A stretch of 64,000 bases of DNA. It comes from Haladaptatus caseinilyticus. Its GTDB lineage: Archaea > Halobacteriota > Halobacteria > Halobacteriales > Haladaptataceae. Shown here piece by piece: positions 7,597 through 40,444 of this stretch. Location of the stretch: NCBI RefSeq assembly GCF_026248685.1, contig NZ_CP111041.1, positions 1-64,000 of the forward strand, in the 5' to 3' direction. The position numbers and the translations under genes were made by a program. The notes under the pieces are model-generated. The model saw only the letters and a list, made by a program, of their open reading frames with translations. It made no database searches and had not been told where the DNA came from. Position 1 is the stretch's first letter. The number at the start of each line of letters is the position of its first letter.

Positions 7597-8453
7597 CCCT
7601 TCGTCCCCTGGATCTGGATGGCGTTGATCAGGTAATCCTGTAGCAACAGGAAGACGACGAATAGGGGCAGTGACGCGATGAGCGTCGCCGCCATCATCAA
7701 CCCCGGCTGGAACACCTGACTGCTCGACAGCGTCACCAATCCGATGGGGAGCGTGTACGACCCCTCCGACTGGAGGACGATGAGCGGCCAGAGGAACTGA
7801 TTCCAACTGCTAACGAAGGTGAACAGCGCCAGCGCCGTCAGCGGTGATTTCATCATCGGCAACATCAGCCGCGAGTATATCCGGAACGTCGAAAAGCCGT
7901 CGAGGCGTGCTGCCTCCTCTAGTTCGTCAGGGAAATCCCGGAAGAACTGCACGAGCAGAAAGACGCCGAGCGGCCCCGCGGTCAGCGGGAGGATGACACC
8001 CGCGTAGCTACTGATGAGGCCGAGATCGGACACGAGCGTGTACAGCGGGACGATGTTCACGTACGCGGGTACCATGAAACTGGCGATGATGACGCTCAAC
8101 ACGAACTTCCGGCCGGGCCAGTCGAGGCGCGTCAGCGAAAACGCGATAAGCGAATCGAAGAGCAGCACCACGAGCGTCGTAATTCCGGCGATGAGGAGCG
8201 TATTCAGCGTCCACTGGAGGATGAGCGACTCCGAGAGGACGTACTGATACCACTGGAGCGTCGGTTCCGACGGAATCCAGTGTGGAACCCGCGAAAACAT
8301 CTCCGAGCGTGGTTTGAGCGAAAGCGAGATCATCCACGCGTACGGGACGAGGAACAACGCTGCCACTCCGTACAGGGCGGCGTACAACCCGACCGTTCGA
8401 ATGGACGTATCCTCGATTCGGCTCCGTAGCGCGTCGGTCGCTTGCGTGCTCAT
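7593..8453 (-). CDS. Carbohydrate ABC transporter permease (MalG/UgpE type)
   Basis: Inner-membrane permease of a CUT1 sugar importer, 286 residues and six predicted membrane segments. The cytoplasmic EAA loop reads EEAARLDGFSTFRIYSRLMLP, with the conserved EAA...G signature that contacts the ATPase. It pairs with the neighbouring MalF-type permease, whose stop overlaps its start by 4 nt. The C-terminal end (INAIQIQGTKG) resembles the usual GxxxGAVKG ending of this family. Confidence 0.93.
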   Translation of the reverse strand: MSTQATDALRSRIEDTSIRTVGLYAALYGVAALFLVPYAWMISLSLKPRSEMFSRVPHWIPSEPTLQWYQYVLSESLILQWTLNTLLIAGITTLVVLLFDSLIAFSLTRLDWPGRKFVLSVIIASFMVPAYVNIVPLYTLVSDLGLISSYAGVILPLTAGPLGVFLLVQFFRDFPDELEEAARLDGFSTFRIYSRLMLPMMKSPLTALALFTFVSSWNQFLWPLIVLQSEGSYTLPIGLVTLSSSQVFQPGLMMAATLIASLPLFVVFLLLQDYLINAIQIQGTKG

Positions 8454-30722: not shown

Positions 30723-31955
30723 CTACACTTCCGTTGTCCCCCGTCGGAGTCCCTCCGAAACGATTGCGGCGATGACAGCAAGCATCGCGAGTACGACGAA
30801 GAGCCACGAAAAGCTCGCTCGCGTGAGGACGTATCCGGCGATAGTCGCACCCAACGCACCAACGCCAAAGACGCCGACATACGTGTATCCGTAACTCAGC
30901 CCACGAGTATCGGTAGACGAGTAATCCGCGACCGTAGCCTGCATGAGCGGCTGCTCACCGAAGAGAAACACGCCGAGAAGTATACTCAGCGGAACGAGAT
31001 TCCACATACTCGGGTTCGTGATCGCTGCGAACATGGCGGATACACCCGCCAATCCGAGAAAAACCACAACGAGTCCGCGGATGGGACTCACCCGATCGAC
31101 GAGCCACCCGCCGACGTACTGACCGAAGACACCGACGAGCAGCAATCCACTGTATAGGTATTGGGACGTCCCACGAAACAGGTCAGGTGTGATGGCGGAC
31201 TTCGACGTGATTACCGTGTCGAAGACGTCAGGGAGGAAGGTCAGAATCCCTCGGTAGAACAACCCTTCTAAAACCACCAATAGGAATATTACGGCGAACC
31301 CACGAGCGAAGAGCCGTTTCGATGACGAACCGAACTCGGCGATCGAGAACCCGTCCCGTGAATCGACAGCCACTCCACCGTTGCTCACGCGAGCCGGTTT
31401 CTCGATGGGAACGAGAAGCGTAACGATACCGACGAGGAGCGCCGGAACGACGAGGAGTGAAGCCGCGTATCGCCACGACAATTCCAAGAGAAGGACTGAA
31501 ACGAGGAGCGGGCCAACTGCAGTTCCCACGTTACCTGCCACACCGTGAAACGCGAGTCCTCGCCCACGTTCCGAGACGGTGCGGCTGATCAGTGAGAGTC
31601 CGGTTGGATGATACATACTCGCGGACCCACCCCAGACGATCAGACCGACCGTGAGGATGAAAATACTCGGTGCGAGACTTATGATGACGAATCCGACACC
31701 CATTCCCAGCACACTGATCGCGATGAGCATGCGTGTATCGTAGTTATCGGCGAGAATACCGCTCGGAAGCGCCCCGAGGCCGAACAGGACGTAGCCAACA
31801 GTGACGACGAATCCGATCATCGCCGTATCGACGGCGAACGTCGTCATCCAAATCGGAATGAGAAGCGGAATGGTGAGTTCGTACGTATGTACCAGTCCAT
31901 GTGCGAACGAAGCGACAGCGACGGTTCGTCGGTCGTTACTATTCACTGTAACCAC
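30723..31955 (-). CDS. Major facilitator superfamily transporter
   Basis: A 410-residue MFS permease with 12 predicted helices. The loop 2-3 motif appears as GALPSGILADNYDTRMLI and a related GQYVGGWLVDRVSPIRG follows helix 8. Likely imports or exports an organic acid or sugar; no substrate motif is evident. Transcribed in the same direction as the UxaA genes upstream, 84 nt away. Confidence 0.88.
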   Translation of the reverse strand: MVTVNSNDRRTVAVASFAHGLVHTYELTIPLLIPIWMTTFAVDTAMIGFVVTVGYVLFGLGALPSGILADNYDTRMLIAISVLGMGVGFVIISLAPSIFILTVGLIVWGGSASMYHPTGLSLISRTVSERGRGLAFHGVAGNVGTAVGPLLVSVLLLELSWRYAASLLVVPALLVGIVTLLVPIEKPARVSNGGVAVDSRDGFSIAEFGSSSKRLFARGFAVIFLLVVLEGLFYRGILTFLPDVFDTVITSKSAITPDLFRGTSQYLYSGLLLVGVFGQYVGGWLVDRVSPIRGLVVVFLGLAGVSAMFAAITNPSMWNLVPLSILLGVFLFGEQPLMQATVADYSSTDTRGLSYGYTYVGVFGVGALGATIAGYVLTRASFSWLFVVLAMLAVIAAIVSEGLRRGTTEV

Positions 31956-32039: not shown

Positions 32040-33134
32040 TCACATCGAGGGTCCGACACGCGTTATCGCAAACTCCGTCAGGCCATGCTTGTCCGCCGCA
32101 CAGGGATTCCCGTCCCCAACGGTTCGAATCCGCGTCAATAGGTCGCTTTTCGTATCCGCTGTTGCGTCGATATCGATATCATCGGCAAGCGCCGTGACTG
32201 TGGAGTGCTCTCCGGAGACCTTGATAACAGGGGCTATCGGATGCCCGGCGGGAATCCCATCCGCCGTGAGATGGATGAGTAGATTCGCGCCGGCGGCGAC
32301 CAGTCCAGTCGCTGCTTCTTCGAACCGTGACGGTGAATCGACGATTCCGATGCCGGAATCGAGAGATGCAGCGGACCCATACTCCAACACTTCGTTGATG
32401 TCACTCGATCCCCATTCGCGAGTTATCTCGTCGAAATCCCCCGCTGCAGCACGCATCCCGACCTGTGTCGCTCGTGGTGGCTCCTCTCGGTGTCGGGAAA
32501 ACAACGCCTCGAGGTCGGAATGCGCGTCTGGAACGGTTCGTTCGCGTGCGGCCGCCGGATGGACGACGAGACGTTCGTTTCCTGCGGTGACGATTCGAAC
32601 TCCCATCTCGGTTAATTCATCGATCACATCGCCGACGAGGGGTGCTGCAACCTCGCGTGTGCTCTCGCGGAGGTCACTTGCGATTACACCGACGGTCAAC
32701 TTCCGAAGCGGGACGGATTTCTCGCGGATGTCCGCTTTTTCCCACAGCTCCCGAGCTCGTTCGACACCCTGCTCGACGCACGCTTCAGTGCTCCCGATGT
32801 CTTGAATCGAGACCTCCCTGACGGGTACGCCACGTTCGGAGAGCGAGGCAGCTACTTCCGTACTCTGTACCTCTTCACAGCCGAGTCCGACCACGACGAC
32901 GCCTGCGACGTTCGGGTTGGTTCCGATGCCGACGAGTGTTCGCGCCGTTTGCTCGTTATCCGCCCCGAGCTGAGCGCATCCGTGGTCGTGTGGGGTCGCT
33001 CGAGCGTATGGAAGTCGTGCTGCGATTCGGTCGGCAACGTGGTGGGAACAGATCACCGATGGAACGACGAGAACGTGGTTGCGAATCCCGACTTCGCCGT
33101 TCGAACGTTCGTACCCTTGGAGCGACGCTTTCAT
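32040..33134 (-). CDS. UxaA-family large-subunit homologue B, degenerate in the C-terminal half
   Basis: A 364-residue relative of the altronate/galactarate dehydratase large domain. The N-terminal motifs are kept: GYERSNGEVGIRNH, HDHGCAQ (49-55) and GLGCEEVQ (83-90). The later family motifs are missing: no CGGSD..SGI..NPA segment, MDTPGYD is replaced by IVDSPSR, and TTGRGS by LTADGIP, although PIAPVIKVSG is conserved. It is the third gene of a trio with overlaps of 4 nt. The retained set is exactly what subunit A lacks, so the two probably work as a heteromer. Confidence 0.82.
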   Translation of the reverse strand: MKASLQGYERSNGEVGIRNHVLVVPSVICSHHVADRIAARLPYARATPHDHGCAQLGADNEQTARTLVGIGTNPNVAGVVVVGLGCEEVQSTEVAASLSERGVPVREVSIQDIGSTEACVEQGVERARELWEKADIREKSVPLRKLTVGVIASDLRESTREVAAPLVGDVIDELTEMGVRIVTAGNERLVVHPAAARERTVPDAHSDLEALFSRHREEPPRATQVGMRAAAGDFDEITREWGSSDINEVLEYGSAASLDSGIGIVDSPSRFEEAATGLVAAGANLLIHLTADGIPAGHPIAPVIKVSGEHSTVTALADDIDIDATADTKSDLLTRIRTVGDGNPCAADKHGLTEFAITRVGPSM

Positions 33135-33436
33135 CGTTCGGTCCCCTCCTGGTCGCCCCGACCACGAGTGCTTTCACAATTGTGTGTATGTACCCAGGTA
33201 CCAGCGGGAACGTCCGTCGTTGTACGGCCGATAACGGCACCGTATTTGTAAACCTCCTCTCCACTCTCCATCGGATCGAGTGCGAATTTATGCCCGAACG
33301 GAACCCGGTCGGCGAGTATGATTCTCTGCCCGTCAATTTCCAGTACGCGTCCGGACTCGAGGTCTTCGAGTGCGGTCGCAACTGAGTCCCGGCGATCCAT
33401 GAGCAGCGCCGCATCTTCGATTACGTCGCCTTTCAT
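33131..33436 (-). CDS. UxaA-family small subunit (SAF domain)
   Basis: A 101-residue SAF-fold protein equal to the N-terminal domain of altronate/galactarate dehydratases. GHKFALDPMESGEEVYKYG and IGRTTTDVPAGTWVHTHN are the family hallmarks; the final His is expected near the active site. It overlaps the genes on both sides by 4 nt, so stoichiometric synthesis with both large subunits is likely. Confidence 0.88.
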   Translation of the reverse strand: MKGDVIEDAALLMDRRDSVATALEDLESGRVLEIDGQRIILADRVPFGHKFALDPMESGEEVYKYGAVIGRTTTDVPAGTWVHTHNCESTRGRGDQEGTER

Positions 33437-34614
33437 GCTGTTCCCTCCAACTCCTTCGGCTGGATCTCGTTGATCGCAAACTCCTGAAGCTGTCGGCGTT
33501 CAGCTTCGGTTCGTTGTCCGTTTGCGACCGCTTTGATGGTCTTGTATACTCGTTGACCGACTGCCTCGATATCCTCTCCGTGGACGATCGTCGACGCGTT
33601 TACGTCCATATTACTCCGCATCTTTTTCCACGTACCCGGATTGCCCGTGACCTTGATGACTGGCGCTATCGGGTTCCCTGTCGTCGAACCTCGGCCGGTC
33701 GTAAAGGCGATAATCTGCGCTCCGCCAGCGACCTTTGCGACGACGCTCTCGACGTCGTATCCGGGCGTATCCATGAGGATGAGCCCACTGCCAGCCGGTA
33801 ATTTTTCCCCGTAATCGACGATGCCCCGTATCGGGGTCGTTCCACCCTTCGCAATCGCTCCGAGGCTCTTTTCTTCGATTGTCGTCAACCCTCCTTCCTG
33901 ATTGCCGGGTGTGGGTTGTGCGCCACGGAGGTCGACACCCATCAGTTTCGCTTGTCCCTCACGCGCTTCGACGCGTTCGAGAAGTCGCTCACGAGTTTTT
34001 TCGTCAGCACACCTTTCTGCCAGGATATGTTCTGCACCGATGAACTCCGGCGTCTCGCTAAAACAAGTCGTCCCACCCGCAGCAACGAGTCGGTCTGCGG
34101 CGTTTCCCACCGCGGGATTGGCCGCGATACCGCTCGTCGCGTCACTTCCTCCACATTCCGCGCCAAAAATCAGCTCCGATAGATCTGCATCCTCGCGTCG
34201 TGTCTGCGATATCCCTTCGTACAATTTCTCCATGAGATTCCGTCCGGCTTCGAGTGTCCGTTTCGTCCCTCCACAGTCACGAATCGAGAGCGTCTCGACC
34301 GGCGTACCACTCGTCGCAATTCGATCCGCGAGCGAATCGGCATCGATGTCTTCGGTACCGAGTTCGAGGACGACGGCGGCACCGACGTTCGGATTTCGAC
34401 CGACGCCAACCAAGACGCTCTCGGTTTGCCTCCGTGCCGGGTCGGGTTGTGTCGTCCCCATTTGATGGGGCGTTGCACGTGCCCACGCGCCGGATTCGGT
34501 CGCGATGTGACGGGCAACCGGACTGGCGGCTACCGACGTCGGGATGATGGCGACGTAATTGCGGACGCCGATCTGGCCATCGTCTCGGCGATACCCGCGA
34601 AATGTTCCACACAT
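33433..34614 (-). CDS. UxaA-family large subunit A (altronate/galactarate dehydratase type)
   Basis: A 393-residue dehydratase large domain, first gene of the trio. The C-terminal catalytic features are kept: ECGGSDATSGIAANPAVG (153-170), SETPEFIGAEHIL, GNQEGGLTTIEEKSLGA, MDTPGYD and TTGRGSTTGNPIAPVIKVTG. The two N-terminal Cys/His motifs usual in the family are lost: HQMGTTQ (50-56) instead of HxxGCG, and LELGTED (83-89) instead of GLGCE. Expected chemistry is dehydration of a hexonate or hexarate to a 2-keto-3-deoxy acid. Confidence 0.85.
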   Translation of the reverse strand: MCGTFRGYRRDDGQIGVRNYVAIIPTSVAASPVARHIATESGAWARATPHQMGTTQPDPARRQTESVLVGVGRNPNVGAAVVLELGTEDIDADSLADRIATSGTPVETLSIRDCGGTKRTLEAGRNLMEKLYEGISQTRREDADLSELIFGAECGGSDATSGIAANPAVGNAADRLVAAGGTTCFSETPEFIGAEHILAERCADEKTRERLLERVEAREGQAKLMGVDLRGAQPTPGNQEGGLTTIEEKSLGAIAKGGTTPIRGIVDYGEKLPAGSGLILMDTPGYDVESVVAKVAGGAQIIAFTTGRGSTTGNPIAPVIKVTGNPGTWKKMRSNMDVNASTIVHGEDIEAVGQRVYKTIKAVANGQRTEAERRQLQEFAINEIQPKELEGTA

Positions 34615-34789: not shown

Positions 34790-36994
34790 TCAGCGCCCGT
34801 CGGGTGCGAGTATTTCGACTGGGTGTTTCACATCGCTACTCAGGAGATCAGTGAGTTGCTCGCTGCACGAGGTTCCGGAGGCGACGATCGTCCGGTCGGT
34901 TGCATCGGAGAACTGGTCGCCGAGGGTCGAACCCACGTCCATACTCAGTTCGTAATATTCCGATTTGTAGCCAAAGCTGCCTGCCATCCCACAACATTCG
35001 ACATCGGAGGTGATGACATCGTACCCGAGCCGTTCGAAGACAGCCTCGGTGTATGCATCGAGTCCTAACGTCCGTTGTTGGCAATGACTGTGGTAGGCGA
35101 GTCTCGAGTCGGCATTCGAGAGTGCGTCTGCCTCAGCACCGTTTTCCAAGAGCCCAAAGACGTATTCGAGAACCTCGTAGCTGTTTTCCGATAGCATATC
35201 GAACGCGCGAGCAGGGAGTAGTTTTTCGTAATCACGGCGGAACATAGCTAGGTCGCTCGGTTCGATGACGACGATGTCAGCACCCGCGTCGATATAACGT
35301 CGAAGCCGGTCTGTGACCTGTTTCGCCTTCGATTCGGCGGTGTCGATCATTCCCTGCGAGAGTGGTGCTCGTCCACTTCCGGGGACATCCGGAATGATAA
35401 CCTCGACTCCCAGCGATTCGAGAACGTTGACGGCAGCTTTCCCGCGCTCTACGAGGACGTAGTTCGTATAAACGTCCGGGTAGAGTACGGCAGTTCGGTC
35501 GGTACTACGAACCTTGTTCCCACCCCGAGCCGCGAACCAGTCGACGAGTGACTCCCGCCTGAACGATGGGAGTTCGCGACGCTGGTCGATTCCCATGAGT
35601 CGGTCCATACCATCCCTGATGGGGGACGAATCGAGTATCCAATTCGAAACGGGCGCCGTTTTGCTCCCTACCTTGGCCATCGTTTCGAAGTTACCAAACG
35701 CTCGTTTTTGGAGGTCCAGCCTCGCTGGCTCCTCATCGGGAGTCAATCCTTCGACCAGAAAATCGAACTCGGAGCTGTCGTGGTCGTGATTGAGTCGGTC
35801 GCGAACGACCGTGTTGATCCACGGAATATCGATCTTCACCGGACAGGCGGTCACACAGCGCGAACATCCCGTACAGAGATCGTTGAACTCGTCCGCACTC
35901 TCGATACCGTTGACCCCCGTCTCCCAACCGGTGGCGATACCGCCGGTGTAGGTTTCCCCGCCGAAAGCATGGCCGCCAACGTGCTGGAAGTTCGCGCAGG
36001 AGTTTGCGCAGGCACCACACCGAATGCAGTACAACGTCTCCCGCAGCTGCTCGTCCTCCCGCATCGCCAACCGGCCGTTATCGATGAGGACGAGGTGGAA
36101 CGAGCGGTCACCATCCGTTTCGAACGCCGGTGCTTCGGGATCCTCGAAATCAAGCGTGGGGGAATTGGTTGGCGGGCTGAACAGCGATACGTACTGTGAA
36201 ATATCCTGCCCAGTGGCCGACCGTGCGATGAGTTCGATAAACGGTCCGAGGTCCGAAAGCGACGGGAGTATCTTCTCGACGCCGGTAACCGCGATATGGG
36301 TGTCAGGGGTCACCGCACATTTTCGTGCATTCCCCTCGTTGGTAACGAGCGTAATCGTCCCCGAATCCGCGAGCACGAAGTTTGCCCCAGTCATCCCGAC
36401 ATCGGCGGCCCGAATCCGGTCACCGAGATAATCGCGCGCGAATTCCGTGAGCTGTTCCGCCGTTTCGAACGGTTCGTCGGGATCGAAATATCGGTTGAAG
36501 AGGTCGGCGACATCGTCCGTCGTCCGATGTAGCGATGGCCCGACGAGGTGGGAGGGGGCTTCGTCTGCAACCTGCAGAACGAACTCGCCGAGATCCGTTT
36601 CCCAGACATCGACGTCGTTCGCTTCCAACGCCTCGTTCACCTCGATTTCCTCCGTCGTCATCGATTTGCTCTTCACGACGGTGTCTCCACCGGCTTCATC
36701 GACGACGTCTCCGATATAGGCGTTGGCATCCGCGGCGTCGTCAGCGATGTAGAGGGTGCCACCGTTTTCTTCGACGGAATCACGAAGCGTTTCCACGAGT
36801 TCGGGAAGCCGCTCGATAGCGTCCTCCTTGATCGCACGTGCTTCGGCACGAACGGCTTCGTAGTCGTCGAACTCTTCGACGGCATCGTATCGCTCTTCGT
36901 TGAAGTGAGTCGTGTTCTCGTGAACGCTCTCGCCTTCGGTCTCCAGCAGATGGCGGATTTTGGCAGCCTTCCGACGACGGGTATCGCTGCTCAT
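34790..36994 (-). CDS. LutB-LutA fusion: LUD / 4Fe-4S / CCG-domain lactate oxidation protein
   Basis: A 734-residue fusion. Residues 1-300 are a LUD domain (GANFVLADSGTITLVTNEGN), 320-390 hold two ferredoxin-type clusters (C323, C326, C329, C333 and C374, C377, C380, C384) and 500-734 form a GlpC/LutA-like cysteine-rich domain (LAYHSHCQQR, DVECCGMAGSFG). In Bacillus LutA and LutB are separate subunits of the L-lactate dehydrogenase complex LutABC; here they are one chain. The adjacent LUD gene supplies LutC. The likely role is cytoplasmic oxidation of lactate or a related 2-hydroxyacid to the keto acid. Confidence 0.88.
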   Translation of the reverse strand: MSSDTRRRKAAKIRHLLETEGESVHENTTHFNEERYDAVEEFDDYEAVRAEARAIKEDAIERLPELVETLRDSVEENGGTLYIADDAADANAYIGDVVDEAGGDTVVKSKSMTTEEIEVNEALEANDVDVWETDLGEFVLQVADEAPSHLVGPSLHRTTDDVADLFNRYFDPDEPFETAEQLTEFARDYLGDRIRAADVGMTGANFVLADSGTITLVTNEGNARKCAVTPDTHIAVTGVEKILPSLSDLGPFIELIARSATGQDISQYVSLFSPPTNSPTLDFEDPEAPAFETDGDRSFHLVLIDNGRLAMREDEQLRETLYCIRCGACANSCANFQHVGGHAFGGETYTGGIATGWETGVNGIESADEFNDLCTGCSRCVTACPVKIDIPWINTVVRDRLNHDHDSSEFDFLVEGLTPDEEPARLDLQKRAFGNFETMAKVGSKTAPVSNWILDSSPIRDGMDRLMGIDQRRELPSFRRESLVDWFAARGGNKVRSTDRTAVLYPDVYTNYVLVERGKAAVNVLESLGVEVIIPDVPGSGRAPLSQGMIDTAESKAKQVTDRLRRYIDAGADIVVIEPSDLAMFRRDYEKLLPARAFDMLSENSYEVLEYVFGLLENGAEADALSNADSRLAYHSHCQQRTLGLDAYTEAVFERLGYDVITSDVECCGMAGSFGYKSEYYELSMDVGSTLGDQFSDATDRTIVASGTSCSEQLTDLLSSDVKHPVEILAPDGR

Positions 36995-37537
36995 CTATCG
37001 ATCCTCCACGATGATAACACGCACATCGGCTGGCCCGTGAACCCCTTCGACGAGCGCGCCCATATCACCGGTCGCGCTGACGCCAGTCGCAAAGACGGCG
37101 GAGCGTCGACCGTCGGTGAATTCGCCATCCAACCATTCGAGCGCGTCGCGAACATCCGGAACGATGTCCCCTTCACGAACCACGGCGACGTGACGGGGTG
37201 GATAGAGGCTGACCGGTTCGGTACCGGTGGGGGAGGACTGTAACAGTAGACTTCCGTGTGCTGCAACACCAAGTGCAGCGGGAGTAATGCCGGTTTTCGC
37301 ATCTACGAGTTGCTGCGATGATGGAGAAAGCGTTGCGTCCGTTTCTTCGAGCGAAATACCTTCGATGCCTAATGGAACGCCCACGGCAGGCAGTTCGATA
37401 TACTCAGTGAGCGCTTCGATAAATCCGTCCGGGGTCGTACTCATACATGGAACATCGAGAGTCCCTAACGACGACTCGAATGCCGCGACCACGTTTGTTG
37501 CCATAGATTCACACAGTGAACGGAACGTGATAATCAT
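36995..37537 (-). CDS. LUD-domain protein (LutC type)
   Basis: A 180-residue LUD-domain subunit. The segments VGVPLGIEGISL, GITPAALGVAAHGSLLL, VSLYPPRHVAVVREGDIVPDVRDAL and VHGPADVRVIIVEDR match the LutC pattern. It ends next to the start of the LutB-LutA fusion. The ATG at 37537 overlaps the upstream stop by 4 nt and implies coupling; an internal ATG at 37504 fits the family N-terminus equally well. Confidence 0.85.
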   Translation of the reverse strand: MIITFRSLCESMATNVVAAFESSLGTLDVPCMSTTPDGFIEALTEYIELPAVGVPLGIEGISLEETDATLSPSSQQLVDAKTGITPAALGVAAHGSLLLQSSPTGTEPVSLYPPRHVAVVREGDIVPDVRDALEWLDGEFTDGRRSAVFATGVSATGDMGALVEGVHGPADVRVIIVEDR

Positions 37538-38121
37538 TTCTTGTCGTATTGAGAGATGTTCACATCGTTTATATCATCAAATGTACCGTTCGTGAAGGAG
37601 ATGGATACGGGATCCTGGCCCACGCGCAGATCGTCTCGGGTACGGGCGGCTTCGACGAGCGGTTCGGAGACCGAGAGATAGCGAAGGTGGCTCGTGTCTT
37701 TCGCTCGAATCACACGCGCTTGCTCGGGAGGGGTGACACCGGTCGTCGAGAGACAGGCAAGTAGCCCCGCGGCGTCGTTTTCGACGGCCGCGGGTATTCG
37801 CATCGAACGTGGAGATGTCGCAGTGAGCATGTTGATACACGTCTTTCCGGAATCGATGGCTGCCAAGACATCAGCGTGGATGAAATCGGCGGATCCGACA
37901 CTGACGGCGACGGTTCCACCTCGAGGCACCGAGGACAGGTCGAGCGTCTCCACCGCAGCAATCGAGTGATCCCGAACGTCAGTATCGGGAATCGGCGACG
38001 TATTCCAGCACTGCTCGATGACTCCCATTTTCGGAAACGACTGGTCAGTACATGCATCACGAACCGTCGTCTCCGAGATAACCATGTCATTCGTGGACTC
38101 ACGGACTATACCATACCCCAT
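37534..38121 (-). pseudogene. LarA-like (lactate racemase domain) protein with large internal deletion
   Basis: A 195-residue open frame that joins the two ends of a LarA/DUF2088-type protein. Residues about 32-77 (IEQCW...TVAVSVGS) match the family N-terminus, and residues about 78-185 (ADFIHADVLAAID, NMLTATSPRSMRIPAAVEND, PEQARVIRAKDTSHL, VSEPLVEAAR) match its C-terminus. The roughly 200-250 residues between them, which hold the pincer-cofactor and substrate site including the family IKPHTDF-type segment, are absent. The junction is near 37890 and is in frame, so the stub may be translated, but it cannot be a normal racemase. It sits first in the lactate-oxidation operon. My family assignment is from memory of the family pattern. 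Confidence 0.6.
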
Positions 38122-38253: not shown

Positions 38254-39429
38254 TTACTCGTAGATGTGGACGCTTCCGGTCGTATTTGACTCGATATAGT
38301 CCCAATCGTACTCGACACCGAGACCCGGTTCGTTCGGTACCGGAACCGTCCCGTCGCTATCGATTGCGTCGATCATATCCGAGTAGCCTCCTACATAGAC
38401 AGGAGGTTGCGTGTTTTGACATTTCGGGTGGACCAACGCGAGTTCGTAGTAGTTCGAATTCCGTGTCGCCGCGATACAGTGCCGTTGAGCGGGTCCGGGT
38501 GCGTGAAATTCGACGTCGAGCCCAAACCCTTCCGCCACCCTTGCACGTTTCATTGCGCCCGTAATACCGCCGTCGTACTCGGGGTCTGCACGCACGAAAT
38601 CGGTTGCTTCGTTCGCGACGAAGTCAGTGGCCATTTCGAGACCACGGACGTGTTCGGTTTGCAGGATCGGGGTGTCAAGCGACTGTCGAAGCTTTCGATG
38701 TGCATGTTGGGAGATCCCGCCATCGCGGAACGGATCTTCGTACCAGAAGAAGCCTTCTTCGTCGAGTGCACGTCCTAATTTGAGCGCGTCGCCGAAGGTT
38801 TCCAGCTCACAGGCCGGATCGTGCATCAGGTCCATCTCATCCCCGACGCGCTCTCCGACTGCGTGCACGGCCGCGATTTCGCGGTCGAGGTCCCGGGCGG
38901 TATCGCCTCCTCCCCACCCATGGATCTTGTATCCGGGGAACCCTCGCTCACGGCACTCTTCGGCGAAATCAGCGAATGCTGCCGGCGAATCGAGTCCACC
39001 ATTCTCGTCACCGTGATATGTGGATGCGTACGATGGTATCCGCTCCCGGTACGTTCCGAGCAGTTCGTGAATCGGTGCGTCGTGATATTTACCTGCAAAA
39101 TCCCACAGCGCGATGTCGAGCGGACCGATTCCCATTCGATCGTATTTTCTGAGCGCACGCTTGACCTCGCTCCAATGTTTCTCGCGTTTCAGCGGATTCT
39201 TACCGACGAGATAATCGGCGACGGTGTTGTACTGGGCCGCTCCCGGAGAGTTACCTCCCACATACTCCCCAGTGATTCCGGTATCGGTGTGAACCTTGAT
39301 CGCGAACAACTTTCGTTCGGTCGTCGCTCCCGGTTCGTAAACGAGGTTGAAACCGTGCGTATCGGTGCCAACATCCTCCAACGGGTACGTGAATTCCGTA
39401 CTCTCTATTTTCGTTATTTCTGGTGCCAC
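38254..39429 (-). CDS. Enolase-superfamily protein (MR/MLE family), fourth copy
   Basis: A 391-residue enolase-superfamily enzyme distinct from the other three here. Candidate metal ligands are D204 (LMHDPACELE), E231 (WYEDPF) and E259 (QTEHVRG), with K168 (YKIHGWG) and H309 (EFHAPGPAQRHC) as acid/base candidates. The N-terminal capping domain includes a proline- and glycine-rich segment (GGNSPGAAQY). The last residues, GSVHIYE, are atypical. It is divergent from iclR 2 and probably dehydrates or epimerises a sugar acid. Confidence 0.8.
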   Translation of the reverse strand: MAPEITKIESTEFTYPLEDVGTDTHGFNLVYEPGATTERKLFAIKVHTDTGITGEYVGGNSPGAAQYNTVADYLVGKNPLKREKHWSEVKRALRKYDRMGIGPLDIALWDFAGKYHDAPIHELLGTYRERIPSYASTYHGDENGGLDSPAAFADFAEECRERGFPGYKIHGWGGGDTARDLDREIAAVHAVGERVGDEMDLMHDPACELETFGDALKLGRALDEEGFFWYEDPFRDGGISQHAHRKLRQSLDTPILQTEHVRGLEMATDFVANEATDFVRADPEYDGGITGAMKRARVAEGFGLDVEFHAPGPAQRHCIAATRNSNYYELALVHPKCQNTQPPVYVGGYSDMIDAIDSDGTVPVPNEPGLGVEYDWDYIESNTTGSVHIYE

Positions 39430-39518: not shown

Positions 39519-39603
39519 ACGGAAATTTCATCGAGCGCTGATCACGACGATAGGATGGTAAAAATATCGTCACTTCTACCGGCAGTGTTTCATACAACTG
39601 ATT

Positions 39604-39623
39604 GGTAGCCATCGTTTGCTACC
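39604..39623. promoter_or_regulatory. GGTAGC-N8-GCTACC inverted repeat upstream of iclR 2
   Basis: Perfect 6-bp arms at 39604-39609 and 39618-39623, about 57-76 nt before the iclR start at 39680. The size and position suit an IclR dimer site. Confidence 0.45.
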
Positions 39624-39679
39624 TAACTTGTTCTCTATATCAGAATAAAACTTTAGTACCTGCCGTTGGTGGTAAAATC

Positions 39680-40444
39680 ATGGAAAAGGTAGCGAAACAC
39701 CCGGTCCAAACGACCGAAAAAACGCTCCGACTAGTCGAAGCGCTCAAAAACAACGGGAGCTGTGGGATCACCGAATTGGCGGATCGGTTGAAGATGGGAA
39801 AAAGCGCAGTTCACAATCATCTGGCGACGCTCGAACAACACGGGTACGTGGTCAGCGAGGATGGGAACTATCGATTGGGACTGAAATTCTTGGATATCGG
39901 TGGCTACACCCGTAGTCAGATGGACTTATACGAGACCGCAGAATCGGAAGTAAAGCAGCTCGCAATGGAGACGGGCGAACGGGCGAACTTATTGACTGAG
40001 GAGCATGGTATGGGAATCTACCTCTATCGTGCGAATGGAAACCAGGCCGTTGATTTGGACACGTACACCGGTGTTCGTACCTACCTTCACACCAGTGCGC
40101 TCGGAAAGGCCATCCTCGCAACAATGCCCGAAGAGCGTACCGAAGCGATTCTCGATCGGCACGGACTGCCGGCGACGACACCAGGGTGTGTAACCGATCG
40201 CAACGAATTATATGACGAACTAGAAACGATTCGCGAGGACGGGTTCGCGGTCGATGACGAGGAACGGATGGAGGGTCTCCGCTGTATTGCGATGCCCATC
40301 ACCTCGACAGAGGGGAACTCGTTAGGGGCTATCAGCATTTCAGCTCCGTCCAGCCGCATGAAAGGGACCCGGTTTCACGAAACAATCCCGGAATTGTTGA
40401 GCGGTGCCGTGAATGTGATCGAGCTCAACCTCAACTATTCCTAA
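39680..40444 (+). CDS. IclR-family transcriptional regulator 2
   Basis: A 254-residue regulator. The winged HTH spans about residues 10-70 ([24 protein letters not shown]) and the effector domain covers the rest ([33 protein letters not shown]). The ATG at 39680 starts the conserved domain; the upstream open frame is AT-rich leader. Divergent from an enolase-superfamily gene, it likely controls the minus-strand sugar-acid and lactate genes. Confidence 0.9.

Follow-up and report, generated by a model that had tools for sequence, protein, structure and literature searches.

Two paralogous UxaA/GarD-type chains encoded beside a SAF protein in Haladaptatus caseinilyticus divide between them the conserved residues of their single-chain relatives

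Do two large chains of the UxaA/GarD family that are encoded together with one small SAF protein make up one enzyme or two, or can one of the chains be spared? Haladaptatus caseinilyticus raises this question in a 64,000-nucleotide stretch of DNA (assembly GCF_026248685.1, contig NZ_CP111041.1, positions 1 to 64,000; hereafter the window), in which three genes lie on the minus strand and are transcribed in the order A, SAF, B. Subunit A (393 aa, 33433..34614) and subunit B (364 aa, 32040..33134) are UxaA/GarD-type large chains, and the SAF subunit between them (101 aa, 33131..33436) shares 4 nt with each; lengths, coordinates and overlaps are as a first-pass annotation of this DNA had given them. 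Both large chains match the Pfam domains GD_AH_second and GD_AH_C (105.2 and 314.1 bits for A, 134.8 and 70.6 bits for B, with cut-offs of 27.3 and 26.8), and the small protein is a separate SAF domain (PF08666, 36.2 bits, cut-off 21). When sequences were compared with the PDB, GarD (6u7l) was the sole convincing match for A and likewise for B, and all three proteins fall far below the 730.85-bit cut-off of the galactarate dehydratase equivalog TIGR03248 (A 207.9, B 62.3 and SAF 37.2 bits). Judged by sequence, the A-SAF-B genes encode an enzyme of the UxaA/GarD family. We know of no activity for any such triad, and the plasmid records consulted annotate triad proteins only as 'UxaA family hydrolase'. 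A search of the open-access literature (titles and abstract openings) found no description of a three-gene UxaA-type enzyme, and the accessible parts of PMC11775122 and PMC12632266 contain no mention of a split one. Scanning for promoters and terminators, with a consensus that is bacterial and not apt for archaea, gave nothing above chance.

We compared the two chains with a reference set of 32 single-chain proteins, numbered after E. coli UxaA (from NC_000913), from which three SuyB-type chains (L034, L130 and L152, all without the three second-domain cysteines described below) had been removed before counting. Twenty-three of the 32 came from a search with two peptide patterns, one of which contains a cysteine, so that the loci found in this way are partly preselected for cysteine. 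In the alignment, four cysteines (UxaA C132, C166, C199 and C264) are invariant in 32/32, and positions conserved to at least 95% number 16 in the second domain and 42 in the C-terminal domain. Among the 16, A falls below 90% only at C132, C166 and C199 (0/57, 0/60 and 0/60), whereas B has all three cysteines in 59/59 and falls below 90% at four other positions (G110, G116, N122 and L180). The C-terminal domain shows the converse, with at least 90% retention at 41/42 positions in A and at 14/42 in B; 27 of the 42 are retained by A and below 90% in B, and E297, E300, K358 and K365, invariant in the single chains, are kept in at most 2% of B. These counts of 57-60 rows leave out one divergent pair (L033) and the bacterial triads, which were read separately. 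A Fisher test that sets domain against chain returns p 0.0058, a value to which we give no weight because alignment positions are not independent.

The window's own proteins follow this partition residue by residue. B has C29 (UxaA C132, codon 33048..33050, minus strand), C53 (C166 in the motif HDHGC, 32976..32978, minus strand) and C86 (C199 in GLGCE, 32877..32879, minus strand), is without most of the C-terminal catalytic set and shows its own conserved replacements at G185, R188 and F271. A has A29, T54 and T87 where the three cysteines would stand, and retains the catalytic set C154, S157, D158, E187, E190, E195, N238, K249, K256, D287, R308 and K321, the first of these being UxaA C264 in the motif ECGGSD (codon 34153..34155, minus strand). 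The motif differences that the first-pass annotation had claimed are thus as it described them, and a third cysteine, which it had overlooked, follows the same split, with TSVAASP in A and PSVICS in B. It had also held that its proposal would fall if A and B retained the same catalytic residues; they do not, the two sets being complementary, and the four cysteines that single chains hold together are distributed three to B and one to A. From the residues that each has kept, neither A nor B looks able to work alone.

In a profile search of 391 Halobacteria genomes, the window's included and with no preselection by motif, the 58 genomes with an A-type match were exactly those with a B-type match, and in each the two matches are adjacent on a single contig and strand. 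The A-type matches reached at least 490 bits, with a next best of 373. The gap between the matched stretches of A and B is SAF-sized (304-520 nt, median 364). Throughout this profile-found set the three cysteines are present in B (58/58) and absent from readable A (0/56, 0/58 and 0/58), and A retains C264 and eleven other tested residues of the catalytic set in 58/58, including D287 and R308 (UxaA D395 and R416). B has glycine for E297 in 57/58 and arginine for E300 in 56/58, and because these replacements are themselves conserved its C-terminal domain seems to have been remodeled and not simply to be in decay. Some observations count against an obligate complex of the two chains: a cysteine stands in the C264 column in one of the 58 B chains, N347 is retained in 15 of 57 that are readable there, and one gene lies in two assembly pieces in 4/58 (A in G085; B in G283, G224 and G163). 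The divergent pair L033 also counts against it, with further losses and only one of the three cysteines in its B; no SAF was found at that locus.

The junctions are close and the genes are constrained. At the SAF junction the end of A reads ATGA, GTGA or TTGA in 80 of 81 loci (partly duplicates of each other, two of them bacterial), which fits a 4-nt overlap, and the end of SAF at the B junction does so in 53 of the 81. The nearest named relatives are species of Haladaptatus, with B identities of 90% in H. litoreus and 83% in H. pallidirubidus; over the three nearest relatives A is 90, 87 and 82% identical and B 90, 83 and 73%. Comparison of the window with Haladaptatus gave dN/dS values of 0.09-0.16 for A, 0.09-0.23 for SAF and 0.105-0.134 for B, some with dS near saturation, and the three genes are under purifying selection. 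The neighboring enolase-type gene, at 0.02-0.04, is more constrained than any of them, a point on the other side. Chance or a pseudogene as the source of the pattern is ruled out by the 58/58 cysteine pattern together with dN/dS values of 0.09-0.23.

The explanation we favor, with a probability of about two in three, is that A, SAF and B form one obligate dehydratase complex in which iron or iron-sulfur cysteines of B act in trans. Such a complex would most likely be a sugar-acid dehydratase, in which A would carry the substrate- and base-handling C-terminal site and B would supply in trans the three cysteines that may hold an iron or iron-sulfur cofactor; a dehydratase-type site would need this three-cysteine module, either in cis or from B in trans. 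B would pair with A, probably via the second domain common to both. GarD reportedly dimerizes through its second domain, so A and B could pair there. The AlphaFold2 model of B (mean pLDDT 76.8) superposes on GarD 6u7l with Z 34.1 over 322 residues at an rmsd of 3.0, and B is thus predicted to have the GarD fold; the model of A is poor (pLDDT 50.6). Complementary loss after duplication, leading to an obligate A-B-SAF heteromer, was also what the first-pass annotation had proposed, and it gains support at the level of sequence only, from the exact partition, the occurrence in the same 58 of 391 genomes, the conserved gene order, the close junctions and the purifying selection on both chains.

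Haloarchaeal relatives outside the triads bear on what the three cysteines do. We read 19 of 22 non-triad haloarchaeal matches, and these comprise 18 loci with SAF and one large chain and a truncated A-like fragment (L202). In all 18, which are SuyB-type, the three cysteines are absent (with the C132 column gapped in two), C264 and the acidic and lysine set are retained, and UxaA D395 and R416 are both replaced; in four-cysteine chains both of the latter are kept in 14/17 of one group and 10/10 of another. One of the loci (L155) has SAF on the strand opposite the large chain. The comparison of SuyB-type chains with triads indicates that the three cysteines are present or absent together, while C264 goes with the C-terminal site. 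Because SuyB-type chains retain C264 together with the acidic and lysine residues while lacking the three, we infer that the three cysteines may be a separate cofactor module and not part of a four-cysteine site with C154 of A, and the same observation argues against C264 as a simple fourth ligand of a four-cysteine iron site. Hydro-lyases in which three cysteines hold a [4Fe-4S] cluster provide a comparison for a cofactor module of this kind.

This differs from the published suggestion. In the accessible part of their paper, Watanabe and co-workers describe four cysteines as conserved throughout the superfamily with the exception of sulfolactate sulfo-lyase, propose that these four bind iron, suggest a rubredoxin-like four-cysteine iron, report iron-type EPR signals for a family member and call for further analysis of the UxaA/GarD metal site and mechanism (PMC6336799). 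Going by their spacing, the four cysteines would be UxaA C132, C166, C199 and C264. We entertain only tentatively the more specific proposal that the triad's active site is built from two diverged paralogues, with a three-cysteine iron-sulfur module wholly on the sister subunit. If it is true, UxaA/GarD enzymes rely on a three-cysteine cluster like that of aconitase, which can be separated from the acid-base site: SuyB-type enzymes do without it and triads outsource it. This would run contrary to the rubredoxin-like iron. The metal site and mechanism of these dehydratases look unsettled.

Where the two chains come from is best explained by paralogy: A and B are probably paralogues of single-chain enzymes that carry everything. 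Trees of 50, 44 and 34 rows, picked from roughly 160 collected, place both chains, with GarD as outgroup, within the SAF-plus-chain part of the family and apart from UxaA. Haloarchaeal and bacterial B group together (100/97) on long branches, and holding haloarchaeal and bacterial A together fits as well (p 0.616). Bacterial A and B as one clade are marginally rejected (p 0.043), and haloarchaeal A and B as one clade are not (p 0.356). The trees do not place A firmly beside four-cysteine chains; in one of them A groups with SuyB (95/90), and this grouping is not rejected on the C-terminal domain (p 0.098), both of which count against the obligate complex.

The grouping with SuyB leads to the most serious rival, which we consider unlikely at roughly the level of one chance in a handful: that A and SAF are the whole enzyme, as in SuyAB, with B a regulatory or scaffolding paralogue whose cysteines serve, for example, redox sensing or iron delivery. 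Since SuyB-type enzymes, which stand beside SAF and are without the same three cysteines, have no B, A and SAF could in principle work alone. Yet A retains D287 and R308, which are replaced in the SuyB-type chains read and kept in most four-cysteine chains, and for this reason we do not favor the view that A is simply SuyB; nor does an A-type match ever occur without a B-type match in the 391 genomes, where a genome with no B-type match (G270) has a truncated A-like fragment. 

Two independent enzymes, A-SAF and B-SAF, which share the operon and the SAF protein and act on different substrates, could account for the GD_AH_second domain that both chains keep and for the conservation of both, but B lacks the single-chain invariants E297, E300, K358 and K365 and A and B co-occur one to one, which makes this arrangement improbable. 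Least credible of all, and largely contradicted, is decay of B (or A) as a functionless duplicate. B does diverge faster than A, the C-terminal site is absent from it and it lies in two pieces in 3/58 assemblies; against decay, the dN/dS of B resembles that of A, its three cysteines are kept in 58/58 and it has conserved residues of its own.

Triads also occur outside the haloarchaea. Two overlapping searches of 348 genomes each, at a strict threshold of 1e-30 at which triads may be missed, found B-type chains with the three cysteines in three Bacillota-type genomes: L092, a Sulfobacillus MAG; L085, a MAG labelled Actinomycetes that was grouped in the same phylum sample; and G579 (L143), where B sits at a contig start. 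The order A, SAF, B recurs in L085 and L092. The A chain of L085 is without the three cysteines and has C264, and that of L092, truncated at the contig end, has C264 but not C199. In both loci a fumarylacetoacetate-hydrolase-family protein carries SAF as a C-terminal fusion (PF01557 plus PF08666); enzymes of this class frequently catalyze later steps of sugar-acid pathways. A deltaproteobacterial MAG (L150) has neighboring genes of the family that were considered as a further A/B pair and rejected, as they are not complementary; one of the three chains there, all outside the reference set of 32, is in two frames and has serine at C166.

Genes around the triad suggest a pathway of sugar-acid catabolism. 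Directly downstream of B in the window lies an MFS transporter (30723..31955, minus strand), and upstream of A are a LudB-like protein with LUD, 4Fe-4S and CCG domains, of the quinone L-lactate dehydrogenase type (34790..36994, minus strand; below NCBIfam equivalog cut-offs), a LudC-like LUD-domain protein (36995..37537, minus strand), an enolase-superfamily (MR/MLE) sugar-acid dehydratase-like protein (38254..39429, minus strand; below equivalog cut-offs) and a divergent IclR-family regulator (39602..40444, plus strand); a truncated nickel-pincer isomerase is also among the neighbors. A survey of 44 haloarchaeal triad loci, from which four duplicates had been dropped, found enolase-type genes at 30, fumarylacetoacetate-hydrolase-family genes at 21, IclR at 21, Gfo/Idh at 20, SDR at 17, LudB at 16, LarA-type at 15, mannonate-dehydratase-type at 15 and LudC at 14, counts that are descriptive and stand without a background, as some loci are related and some short. 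Next to one triad stands a gene that carries the annotation 2,4-diketo-3-deoxy-L-rhamnonate hydrolase, although it scores below the NCBIfam equivalog cut-off. In Haloferax volcanii, deletion of LudBC, a proposed L-lactate dehydrogenase, impairs growth on rhamnose (PMC8305020). Because of these two links, a 6-deoxy sugar acid is a fair first guess at the substrate of some triads. One substrate for all is unlikely, since an arabinofuranosidase-type gene or a family-28 glycoside hydrolase is found at other loci.

As a case of complementary loss between paralogues the triad is a clean one, and it has become fixed in many haloarchaea. Because the catalytic residues and the putative cofactor cysteines sit on separate polypeptides, the two halves can be purified and mutated individually and then recombined.

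Among known systems, Aconitase X and archaeal phosphomevalonate dehydratase are hydro-lyases with a large and a small swivel-type subunit, of a family different from UxaA/GarD, and to our knowledge neither has a second large paralogue. SuyAB (sulfolactate sulfo-lyase) and the SuyB-type loci resemble the triad in their separate SAF and in a large chain that, like A, retains the C264 set but not the three cysteines; they differ in that they have no B and have D395 and R416 replaced, a mark of SuyB that we noted in the present comparison, whereas a B-type match lies beside A in 58/58 triad genomes and A keeps both residues. One SuyB-type chain, in Paracoccus, adjoins a putative sulfate exporter, and with this neighbor its locus is probably SuyAB. 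PMC6336799 mentions, on the basis of gene context, a UxaA-family L-fuconate dehydratase in Paraburkholderia mimosarum that is by this description heteromeric like the triad, but two genes are named for it and not three. Closer are the systems of SAF plus one four-cysteine chain (Desulfosporosinus, Gracilibacter, an Escherichia albertii plasmid and others), which have a separate SAF gene like the triad and a large chain about 42-52% identical to A and 30-36% to B; unlike the triad they hold all four cysteines and the catalytic set in one chain, and B was not seen in the loci examined. The first-pass annotation had taken the family norm to be all motifs in one chain behind the SAF domain, of which the single chain with all four cysteines stands and the fusion does not hold universally, as SAF is a gene of its own beside one such large chain in many bacterial relatives. 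In E. coli UxaA and GarD (altronate and galactarate dehydratase, COG2721; 6u7l) SAF is fused to the large chain, and in the triad it is encoded apart. These enzymes and the triad have the SAF, GD_AH_second and GD_AH_C domains in common, and the conserved catalytic positions of the single chain are all present across the triad, but split over two paralogous chains.

In the window, comparison with a 478-aa homologue in another collected locus (L024:14560–15996), which is itself above the NCBIfam group 22 cut-off, indicated that 37534–38121 (minus strand) encodes a 195-aa remnant of a nickel-pincer (LarA-type) isomerase; the remnant matches both ends of the homologue and lacks its middle. Outside the window, the same genome carries a short second-domain fragment of the UxaA/GarD family (G000:C6:72074–72232; about 8032–8235 of locus L036) that is interrupted by an in-frame stop codon and is apparently also a remnant. 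A truncated A-like fragment with 60% identity to A lies in a second haloarchaeal genome (L202, G270:C5:71001–74000), which has no B-type match.

Motif reading of a divergent A/B pair from a haloarchaeal genome (L033:15243–17631) revealed extra motif losses, with only one of the three cysteines (UxaA C132, C166 and C199) left in its B, and no SAF was found at that locus. In the bacterial triads of an Actinomycetes-labelled MAG (L085) and a Sulfobacillus MAG (L092), the gene between A and B encodes, as judged by domain content, a fumarylacetoacetate-hydrolase-family protein with a C-terminal SAF domain (L085:7802–9004; L092:957–2183). An Escherichia albertii plasmid encodes SAF together with a four-cysteine chain that is ~46% identical to A (L124:5675–7164), adjoined by a 2-keto-3-deoxygluconate permease gene.
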